Assembly: GCA_022572725.1 (NCBI GenBank)
Contig: JACZVJ010000004.1
Coordinates: 1 to 54,832 of the forward strand
Length of the DNA stretch: 54,832 nt
Direction of reading: 5' to 3'
Source: Nitrospinota bacterium
GTDB taxonomy: Bacteria; Nitrospirota; Nitrospiria; Nitrospirales; UBA8639
Positions 288 to 4,262 of the stretch are shown here, piece by piece. How positions within the stretch are numbered: position 1 is the first letter of the stretch; each line of letters begins with the position of its first letter. The notes under the pieces were generated by a model that was given only the letters and a program-made list of their open reading frames with translations, was not told the DNA's origin and searched no databases. The position numbers and the translations under genes are program-made.

Positions 288-328
288 AAAAAACAACGTT
301 GGGAGCAGGTGGCCCTGCTCCCAACGTT
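288..328 (-). terminator. Rho-independent terminator after the first mini-histone-like gene
   Basis: A perfect 15-bp inverted repeat (295-309 with 314-328, loop TGGC) is followed on the minus strand by a T tract (complement of 288-293). It lies 18 bases beyond the stop codon of the small gene at 347-439. The hairpin resembles the one at 1150-1179 in layout and core sequence. Confidence 0.85.
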
Positions 329-346
329 TATGTTGGCAGGAGAGAG

Positions 347-439
347 TTACCTCTTCCTTTTAGCGGCTGGCTTTTCCTTCGCTGCGGGTTTTTTCGCTGC
401 GGGTTTTTTCGCTGGTTCCTTCTTTTTCGCAGTGGCCAA
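347..439 (-). CDS. Lys/Ala/Pro-rich histone H1-like small protein, copy 1 (30 aa)
   Basis: A 30-residue, strongly basic protein built on AKKPAAKKPAAK repeats, like the C-terminal tails of histone H1 and of bacterial H1-like or AlgP-type proteins, which bind DNA without sequence specificity. It starts with TTG at 439, eight bases after a GGGGG Shine-Dalgarno-like run, and ends before a strong terminator. The ribosome-binding region, coding repeat and terminator all align with a second copy at 1200-1274, which argues that this is a real gene rather than a chance reading frame. An in-frame GTG nine bases upstream is an alternative start. Nucleic-acid binding is inferred from composition only. 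Confidence 0.7.
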   Translation of the reverse strand: MATAKKKEPAKKPAAKKPAAKEKPAAKRKR

Positions 440-1149
440 TTCTCTCACCCCCTTTCGAGTTTTGCCAAAACGCTTCTCCAATTATTTGCAAAACAAATGA
501 TCAAAAAATTTTCCATCCATCGTTGTGATCTTCTTACTCCATTAAAATTTTTTTTGCAATCATTTCTTCTTCGAAATCACAAGCCAAAATTTGTGAGTTC
601 GCTGTGCAAATTTGAACGAACACTATTCGAATTTCACTTTACCTATTAACCCTACCTGATTTTTTTCCTTAACCCAAGAGAAAAGGGGGGATCAGTGCTT
701 GGCCTCTCCACTCCACTGATGGATGTTTGATTGATGAGGTGAGTGTGATTGATTCAACAATTCCATTATCACAATAGCCCACATGAGAATCATTCTCCGG
801 ATTCTTCCCTCAGAGCAATTTGCCTTGAAATTTTTTCCCTTTGTTCTTACCCGCCTCTACGTGACAACCCATCAATTTGTTTCTGCTCGGTGATGGAGTC
901 TTCTAACTGAGGCACACTTTCATTAGCCGGATCCGACATTAAGATTCTCATGTCTCCACACACCAACTGGAGTGCTTGAGTTCCGTCGCAAACGAGGTGA
1001 AAGATTAGGGCTAGTGGTTTTCATTCCTTATAGAGTCGCTCCCGTGACTTGTTAGCCCCGACCTAACCTCAAAATCCCTTGACAGCCCATATGTCGATGT
1101 GAAGATGTTGGTGCACTCAATTAATCTGAGGGTGAAACCTTGTGAAACA
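440..1149. other. Intergenic, 710 bp, no gene seen
   Basis: No credible reading frame on either strand. The part next to the TTG start (about 480-660) is AT-rich and probably holds the promoter and leader of the minus-strand gene ending at 347, but I could not pick a convincing -35/-10 pair. There is no duplicate of the HARE-HTH gene here, so the first mini-histone-like gene stands alone. Confidence 0.6.
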
Positions 1150-1179
1150 CATCGGGAGTAGGGGGCCCTACTCCCGATG
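1150..1179 (-). terminator. Terminator-type hairpin after the second mini-histone-like gene
   Basis: A 30-base near-perfect palindrome (arms 1150-1163 and 1166-1179) lies 20 bases downstream of the minus-strand stop codon at 1200. It has the same position and the same GGGAG...CTCCC core as the hairpin at 295-328. Its T tract is weak (TGTTT), so efficiency is uncertain. Confidence 0.6.
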
Positions 1180-1199
1180 GTACTGTTGGCGGGAGGAAG

Positions 1200-1274
1200 C
1201 TATCTCTTTTTCTTCGCAGCCTTCTTTGCAGCAGGTTTCTTCGCAGCTTTCTTTGCGGGTTTCTTTGTTGCCAT
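1200..1274 (-). CDS. Lys/Ala-rich histone H1-like small protein, copy 2 (24 aa)
   Basis: A 24-residue protein, starting MATKKPAKKAAKK and about half lysine, with ATG at 1274 preceded by a near-ideal AAGGAGGTGAG ribosome-binding site. It is the paralogue of the gene at 347-439: upstream bases, KKPA repeats and downstream hairpin all correspond. The gene begins 52 bases after the stop codon of the HARE-HTH gene on the same strand, so the two are probably cotranscribed. The family resemblance (H1-like, PAKKAAKK tails) suggests DNA or RNA compaction; there is no direct functional evidence. Its size puts it below usual gene-finder cut-offs. Confidence 0.75.
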   Translation of the reverse strand: MATKKPAKKAAKKPAAKKAAKKKR

Positions 1275-1326
1275 TCCACTCACCTCCTTTCAAGTCTTGG
1301 GCGACACACCGGCCGCTTGTTAAAAC

Positions 1327-1857
1327 TCACACAGCATGTGTGAGCGATGGGTCTGGCTCTCCTCGCCTTTCAAAGGTGTTCGGGGCGACCTTTTTGAATC
1401 GTGGGTCTCTCTTTAGGGAAGTGGCCACGGAGGTTATGGGCGTTTTCCCCCGAATTTGCATCCCGCCTTCCATTAAGCGTTGACAGAGCTCCTTGGCATG
1501 CATGGGGCGATGGGCTTCTCGTAGGATCCTATGGGCAGCATCCGGCATGCTCATACCGACGTACTTGCTTCGCCCCAGGAGGATTTCCCGTGATTGGTCG
1601 GTGACGTCCGCAACCGGCGAGGGCAGACTTCCCTTTTCATCCGTAATGATTTGGCTGGAAAGGCTGGCCAGTTTCGCTTTATCCGCTTCCACGCGGTACA
1701 AGGTTTTTGCCAACTCAAGGTATTTCTCGATGGTCGCAACTTCCTCATTCAGACGCTCCCGCTTTTTTTTAAGATCCTTAAGCTTGGTATCATAGGCGCT
1801 AATTCGCTGCTCAAGGCCGACTGTTATATCCCTTAGCTCATCTTTTTGCTCTTCCAT
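1327..1857 (-). CDS. Coiled-coil protein with C-terminal HARE-HTH domain
   Basis: The 176-residue product has two parts. Residues 1-75 are charged, heptad-rich and likely coiled coil. Residues from about 100 to 165 (starting MSMPDAAHRILREAHRPMHA) match the HARE-HTH winged-helix domain, seen in HB1/ASXL proteins, the RNA polymerase delta subunit and some restriction enzymes. The role is unknown; a DNA-binding or transcription-associated dimer is the reasonable inference. ATG at 1857 was chosen because the promoter at 1886-1914 would place the transcript start about 20 bases upstream; TTG at 1863 is an alternative. The mini-histone-like gene at 1200-1274 follows on the same strand. Confidence 0.75.
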   Translation of the reverse strand: MEEQKDELRDITVGLEQRISAYDTKLKDLKKKRERLNEEVATIEKYLELAKTLYRVEADKAKLASLSSQIITDEKGSLPSPVADVTDQSREILLGRSKYVGMSMPDAAHRILREAHRPMHAKELCQRLMEGGMQIRGKTPITSVATSLKRDPRFKKVAPNTFERRGEPDPSLTHAV

Positions 1858-1885
1858 AGCCAAGCTTTAATCATTGCTTGCTTGC

Positions 1886-1914
1886 TTTTTATCAAACAAA
1901 TAAGTCTTTGTCAA
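1886..1914 (-). promoter_or_regulatory. Sigma70-type promoter for the HARE-HTH gene
   Basis: On the minus strand a perfect TTGACA (complement of 1909-1914) is separated by 17 bases from TAAAAA (complement of 1886-1891). The predicted transcript starts some 20 bases before the ATG at 1857. It lies within very AT-rich DNA. Confidence 0.6.
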
Positions 1915-3399: not shown

Positions 3400-4262
3400 A
3401 GTCTAAAGCCCAAGCAACCGACAACGGCGTTATGAAGAATCTGGTTGGTGCGTCACTGGAATCCTCCCTGCAGGAAAAGTTCCTGGAGCTCCGAAAACTG
3501 TTCCATGACATGGGCGCCGTTCTAGTCGCGTTTTCTGGTGGGGTCGACAGCACACTCGTCCTAAAATTGGCTCATGATACGCTTGGGTCTCGGGCGATTG
3601 CAGTCACCGCGGTTTCTCCAACCTTCCCCGAAGTCGAGCTTGACACTGTCCGCCAACTCAGCCAAGAAATCGGAGCTCGTTTAATCATCACCGAAACCAA
3701 TCAACTCCAGATGCCCCACTTCGTTCGCAACGATGGGATGCGCTGTTACCATTGCAAAACCGATCTGTATCATCTTCTCGGCGATATCCAAAAGGATTTG
3801 GACATCCCAAGCGTTGTGGATGGAACCAACAGGGATGACTTGAGCGACGAGCGACCGGGGATCAAAGCGGCTCGGGAATTCAGCGTGCGGAGCCCCCTCG
3901 TCGAGGCGAGTATGGGCAAGGCAGACATCCGGACCCTCGCCAAAGCCCTCGGGCTTTCAAATTGGGACAAACCAGCAGCGGCGTGCCTGTCTTCAAGAAT
4001 TCCAAGAGGGATTATGATTACACATGAGAAGTTACGACGAGTGGAGAAGGCGGAAGCCTTTCTGTTAGATGAAGGCTTCCGGCAGGTTCGGGTCCGTGAC
4101 CATGAGGGTCTCGCCCGGATTGAATTGGATTCAGAAGATCTCTCCGCTTTCCTTGATCCAGACCGTCGCCAGAGGGTGACCCAAGCTTTGAAGAACGCCG
4201 GCTTTCGCCGAGTGACGCTGGATCTTGAAGGTTATCGGCAGGGTGGCGGAAACGCCAGGTAA
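3396..4262 (+). CDS. larE: LarE-type ATP-dependent sulfur transferase (PP-loop)
   Basis: An ATP pyrophosphatase of the LarE family, which makes the thiocarboxylates of the nickel-pincer nucleotide used by lactate racemase and related enzymes. The PP-loop motif SGGVDS is at residues 47-52. Three cysteines stand out: C117 and C120 (CYHC) and C197 (AACLSSR). Sacrificial LarE of Lactiplantibacillus uses a single cysteine, while three-cysteine homologues such as that of Thermotoga bind a [4Fe-4S] cluster and act catalytically, so this one is predicted to be the cluster type. GTG start at 3396 overlaps the rlmN stop. No larB or larC is in the window. Confidence 0.88.
   Translation: MKSKAQATDNGVMKNLVGASLESSLQEKFLELRKLFHDMGAVLVAFSGGVDSTLVLKLAHDTLGSRAIAVTAVSPTFPEVELDTVRQLSQEIGARLIITETNQLQMPHFVRNDGMRCYHCKTDLYHLLGDIQKDLDIPSVVDGTNRDDLSDERPGIKAAREFSVRSPLVEASMGKADIRTLAKALGLSNWDKPAAACLSSRIPRGIMITHEKLRRVEKAEAFLLDEGFRQVRVRDHEGLARIELDSEDLSAFLDPDRRQRVTQALKNAGFRRVTLDLEGYRQGGGNAR

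Follow-up and report, generated by a model that had tools for sequence, protein, structure and literature searches.

The beginning of the window, by which we mean the whole 54,832-nt stretch of Nitrospirota DNA analysed here, raises the question whether two very short lysine-rich reading frames behind a gene for a HARE-HTH protein are genes at all and, if so, what their peptides might do. On the minus strand the order is HARE-HTH gene, 24-codon ORF, 30-codon ORF. The first small frame (copy 1 of what we call the mini gene; 1200..1274, minus strand) encodes MATKKPAKKAAKKPAAKKAAKKKR from an ATG. The other (copy 2; 347..439, minus strand), which starts about 760 nt further in the direction of transcription, encodes MATAKKKEPAKKPAAKKPAAKEKPAAKRKR from a TTG. 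As a preliminary description had stated, frames of 24 and 30 residues with near-identical ribosome-binding sites can be read directly in the window: the long Shine-Dalgarno of copy 1 is AAGGAGGTGA (10 nt; 1280..1289, minus strand, pattern match 1272-1289; upstream sequence AAAGGAGGTGAG), that of copy 2 is GGGGGTGAG (444..452, minus strand, pattern match 432-452; upstream sequence AAAGGGGGTGAG). The genome (3.17 Mb) contains four perfect copies of AAGGAGGTGA in front of a start codon and its reversed control six, so that the Shine-Dalgarno alone is no evidence for a gene; its conservation across species is, and the site of copy 1 is also present in relatives.

Hairpins lie behind both frames on the minus strand, at 1150..1179 (GGGAGTAGGGCCCCCTACTCCC; z = -4.2 for the 78 nt downstream of copy 1) and at 295..328 (GGGAGCAGGGCCACCTGCTCCC; 15 pairs and a T run; z = -5.7 downstream of copy 2). 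They had been proposed as matching terminators, and their stems are indeed alike, but a good U tract is found only after copy 2, which makes the terminator-like hairpin of copy 1, with its weak U tract, the weaker of the two. A search of Rfam returned no known RNA element at E values up to 1. The mini gene cannot be read as a frameshifted tail of the HARE gene, since a stop codon, a gap and its own Shine-Dalgarno intervene. The duplication recurs in other genomes of the window's family, where second tandem copies were found at L003, L005, L008, L013, L042, L045, L046 and L050.

The upstream gene (ORF 1327..1863, minus strand; likely start an ATG at 1857, 176 aa) had been taken to encode a coiled-coil HARE-HTH protein directly before the 24-residue frame, and this holds: the product matches Pfam family PF05066 with 47 bits against a cut-off of 25.9 (E = 3.4e-12), and its AlphaFold model (mean pLDDT 80.8) comprises a coiled-coil helix (residues 2-71), joined by a linker of low prediction quality to a C-terminal winged helix (104-164). 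The good promoter and the AT-rich island noted earlier are likewise borne out. A putative sigma70 promoter, TTGACA-17-TAAAAA, is read from the sequence at 1886..1914 on the minus strand, and G+C drops to 22-28% at 1801-2100 versus about 50-58% in coding DNA. In most relatives, too, a strong -35/-10 pair lies upstream of HARE, with at least 10 of 12 positions matching at 79 of 97 loci (not deduplicated, and without a shuffled control). Searched against phages and plasmids, the HARE protein had no match, and in viral contigs no match could be confirmed; the DNA of positions 1-2000 matched no phage either. On these searches a phage or plasmid origin was rejected.

Conservation of the frames and starts in relatives had been chosen beforehand as the point on which the proposal stood or fell, and both are conserved. 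The HARE protein search identified 36 loci in Nitrospirota genomes (alignment of 31 sequences), and matches were present in 106 of 296 genomes sampled across the phylum. Wherever a fetched HARE locus was intact and its DNA readable, the HARE stop codon is directly followed by a lysine-rich ORF; at L004, L009, L041 and L047 the mini gene is merely broken by runs of N. At L016, which belongs to Nitrospira defluvii, the mini gene is located near FP929003.1:135605-135661. The site in front of it is AAAGGRGGTGA or close to it, and 58 of the 63 distinct coding sequences start with TTG. The peptides mostly begin with MATxKK, end in nearly all cases with KKK, KKR or RKR, and range from 12 to 113 aa by variation in repeat number. 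The hairpin 3' of the mini gene is conserved as well (median z = -4.2; 86% of 102 sites below -2). A GCCA loop is common in these hairpins within the Nitrospiria (L099, L101, L103, L016, L036 and 295-328 of the window); in the window, perfect hairpins of 7 bp showed no enrichment of this loop.

That the peptide, rather than an RNA string, has been maintained can be read from the codons. Third positions hold most of the differences among same-length copies in most length classes, and synonymous codon differences outnumber non-synonymous ones by 124 to 59 in the 12-aa class, 23 to 5 in the 18-aa class, 26 to 6 in the 27-aa class and 149 to 8 in the 44-aa class; random single changes would yield about 19% synonymous. 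These counts refer to pairs of related sequences of the same length and are not independent events. The 33-aa class is near parity (34 to 31), and non-synonymous differences prevail in two further small classes, those of 14 and 43 aa. The dominance of synonymous third-position changes among close same-length copies argues for selection on the peptide, and the use of all four alanine and both lysine codons indicates that it is the peptide which is selected and not a conserved purine-rich RNA string. Judged by their sequences, both small ORFs are genuine, conserved genes; they appear to belong to a family that is widespread in the Nitrospirota and has for the most part been inherited at a single locus. 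The literature contains, as far as our searches reached, no paper with these peptide strings from bacteria (one string occurs in a paper on Leishmania) and none that joins Nitrospira with lysine-rich small proteins; the family thus seems to be undescribed.

Whether the mini gene depends on its neighbour can be judged from genomes that have lost HARE. In six Nitrospirales genomes from four genera (L099-L104; a count of genomes, not of independent losses on a tree) HARE is decayed or gone and the mini gene is intact in the stretch from the usual upstream neighbours to lpxC. Broken fragments of HARE remain at L104, only its first codons at L101 and L102, of which L101 also keeps the promoter, and no recognisable remnant at L099, L100 and L103. 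All six loci retain a mini gene with site, TTG, stop codon and hairpin, encoding the 12-residue peptide MATKKAAKKKKK or one that differs in one or two residues. At L101, upstream of position 3443, the HARE promoter and first codons are joined to an open sequence unlike HARE, which stops just before the Shine-Dalgarno of the mini gene. Another family of the class (L090/L145) encodes MAKKKAAKKKKK, also without HARE. No mini gene was found at lpxC in seven HARE-less genomes of the same order or class (G165, G239, G139, G159, G175, G163 and G233), nor beside lpxC in G047, a genome of another class; the mini gene therefore is dispensable in some lineages. Taken together, the mini gene without HARE and the absence of both occur, and intact HARE without the mini gene was not seen.

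The gene also extends beyond the range of HARE. In another class, which we take to be Thermodesulfovibrionia-like, a pattern search matched in at most 78 of 150 genomes, an upper figure because some matches, starting with MAVKK or MAIKK in some families, presumably are ribosomal uL2; the reversed control gave almost none. There the mini gene has an ATG start, faces a convergent lpxC and usually stands behind a winged-helix protein of about 181 aa, which has an ArsR-type HTH according to Pfam and, by our own reading without a Pfam match, a nucleotidyltransferase-like C-terminal part. In class f13 a strict second pattern had no hits although the mini gene is present there, so this pattern was too narrow. 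In f13, too, the mini gene lies next to a convergent lpxC, and it stands behind a winged-helix protein of the same kind that is paired with a helical one of 149 aa, which looks like HEPN by eye only. At L140-L142 the winged-helix protein upstream of the mini gene measures about 189 aa and is followed by a helical one of 149 aa; by eye the two resemble a nucleotidyltransferase/HEPN pair, for neither of which Pfam gave a match. Loci read in other classes include MATKKAAKKPAKKAAAKKKK, MAAKKKAAAKKKKK and tandem pairs. On a wider view it is lpxC that recurs as neighbour, convergent in Nitrospira and in other classes. The window's family is an exception: instead of lpxC, lipB or other genes lie downstream, and lipB, although on the same strand, has no constant position. 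Since the mini gene stands beside lpxC in most lineages and the winged-helix genes differ, it is the constant element and the upstream DNA-binding gene the exchanged one. The module with HARE-HTH that had been suggested therefore stands only in part: a mini gene accompanies every intact HARE locus seen, but it survives the loss of HARE and has a different winged-helix gene upstream in other classes. Outside the Nitrospiria, a stem-loop just before the Shine-Dalgarno (z below -1.5) was present at 81% of 26 sites, compared with 10% of 73 sites in the Nitrospiria set; it lies about 38 nt upstream of the Shine-Dalgarno at L147-L166 and is perhaps a processing or stability element.

The peptides resemble histone H1-like proteins (Chlamydia Hc2/PF07382, Bordetella BpH1, NF038053), which likewise consist of K/A/P/T repeats with evenly spread charge. 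Hc2 also varies in size through the number of its lysine-rich repeats (PMC2848022), at 165-237 aa as against 12-113 aa for the mini proteins, and the mini gene differs from all of these in having a conserved locus with HARE-HTH or lpxC. Profile matches stay below the respective thresholds: the 113-aa form reaches 23.4 bits with PF07382 (cut-off 40; E = 7e-5) and E = 0.004 with NF038053, below the curated cut-off; the 74-, 30- and 24-aa forms do not match PF07382, and of the two short proteins in the window the 30-mer alone matches a histone H1-like model, very weakly (E = 0.026). The earlier term "mini-histone" accordingly fits by composition, that is, by H1-tail-like K/A/P repeats, and by nothing else, and this likeness is weak evidence of homology. 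The same repeat composition is found in the C-terminal KPAA domains of AlgP and PhaF from Pseudomonas, where the repeats form a tail on a folded protein (a helical domain of 124 aa in AlgP); the mini protein is the tail alone. The AlgP tail resembles histone H1, and peptides made of its KPAA repeats show DNA binding in vitro (PMC9239181).

In layout the HARE protein is like Rok, the xenogeneic silencer of Bacillus, with an N-terminal part for oligomerisation, then a linker and, at the C-terminus, the winged helix; Rok and other H-NS-like proteins have these parts in the same order (PMC6936261). Rok (5zuz) was also the best hit of a PDB fold search with the HARE model, although the match is weak (E = 4e-3) and winged helices are common; a sequence search for solved relatives gave nothing convincing (one at E = 0.96). 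The winged helix of Rok has N-T-R minor-groove residues, with a key Asn at the start of helix 3 (PMC6212790); in HARE the region at the start of helix 3, located from alignment and model, reads K-T-P-x-T-S. That the HARE protein might bridge DNA is a guess from its layout. With the delta subunit of RNA polymerase it shares the HARE-HTH domain, but we reject an identification as delta: the delta model TIGR04567 gives 13.9 bits (cut-off 42), the long acidic tail of delta is lacking, and the domain, N-terminal in delta, here comes last, after an extended coiled coil.

On balance we favour, with some reserve, the reading that the mini genes encode a family of stand-alone, nucleic-acid-binding peptides like histone H1 tails, which in this lineage come last in the HARE operon. 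Transcription would start at the sigma70 promoter upstream of HARE, pass into the mini gene as last gene of an operon with the HARE-HTH DNA-binding protein, and stop at the hairpin 3' of it; the small ORF, often duplicated in the window's family, would be translated from its own long Shine-Dalgarno. The product would be an unstructured polycation, comparable to the tail of histone H1, that binds DNA, possibly RNA, by charge and contributes to compacting or neutralising nucleic acid, alongside the winged-helix protein encoded upstream and not dependent on it. Binding of nucleic acid is considered most likely because of the H1-tail composition, the DNA binding of KPAA peptides and the repeat variation of Hc2; from this we infer a role in the nucleoid. 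A bolder version, which we regard as possible and no more than tentative, is that free-standing H1-tail proteins down to 12 residues were selected phylum-wide for a function of their own and are paired with class-specific winged-helix proteins as a lineage-specific chromatin module.

A cation of 12 residues could equally bind ribosomes, mRNA or polyphosphate. We consider it unlikely that the peptide works as a basic protein on RNA or the ribosome, matching the smallest ribosomal proteins in size and charge, instead of as a nucleoid component. Small size, extreme basicity, the long Shine-Dalgarno and long conservation would suit such a role, and Hc2, alike in composition, binds RNA too (PMC2848022); a length that ranges with the number of repeats between 12 and 113 aa, however, is unlike that of a part fitted into the ribosome, and the neighbouring genes encode winged-helix proteins and no translation factors. 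A place on granules is hardly probable, the least so of the readings considered: AlgP, with its K/P/A repeats, is located on polyphosphate granules in Pseudomonas (PMC9239181), but the locus contains no pointer to polyphosphate or PHA metabolism.

The delta subunit, in which a lysine tract and an acidic tail interact, offers a comparison for a further explanation, namely that the peptide is a dedicated partner of the winged-helix protein, either binding the acidic coiled coil or the linker of HARE-HTH or modulating RNA polymerase together with it. The lack of any intact HARE without a mini gene is consistent with this, as are the weak fold matches of the HARE model to delta (8x6g, 2krc; E = 0.02 to 0.25) and the occurrence of HARE-HTH in Bacillus subtilis, Lactococcus lactis and a Thermus, whose genomes served as controls. 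Persistence of the mini gene in the six genomes with decayed HARE, the unrelated winged-helix protein beside it in other classes and the low score of the delta model make this partnership quite improbable. Still more doubtful is a cis-acting leader, in which the ORF and hairpin would regulate by attenuation or translational coupling, with a peptide that has no activity. A small lysine-rich ORF followed by a terminator does recall amino-acid attenuators, but with lpxC convergent in Nitrospira and other classes there is nothing to attenuate, the ORF persists without HARE and reaches 113 aa, and substitutions preserve the peptide. With lpxC convergent and lipB inconstant in place, no regulated gene on the same strand emerges, and an amino-acid attenuator is largely refuted.

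If the bolder version is correct, few conserved proteins known to work on nucleic acids would be as small as the mini proteins, and should the peptide compact DNA, it would present the function of the H1 tail isolated in its smallest form. The natural decay of HARE shows that tiny ORFs can be selected as proteins; a 12-codon gene that keeps start, Shine-Dalgarno and terminator after decay of its partner is a rare natural experiment. Such small lysine-rich proteins likely escape gene finders, and also trypsin-based proteomics, since trypsin can cut at almost every other residue. Nitrite oxidisers could thus possess a chromatin or ribosome factor that has gone unnoticed. Several Nitrospira genomes contain other pairs of ORFs, about 550 nt apart, that start with M/L-ATKK behind GGGTGAAG (G117, contig C21, 19905-20477, and similar places in G257, G281, G287 and G110).
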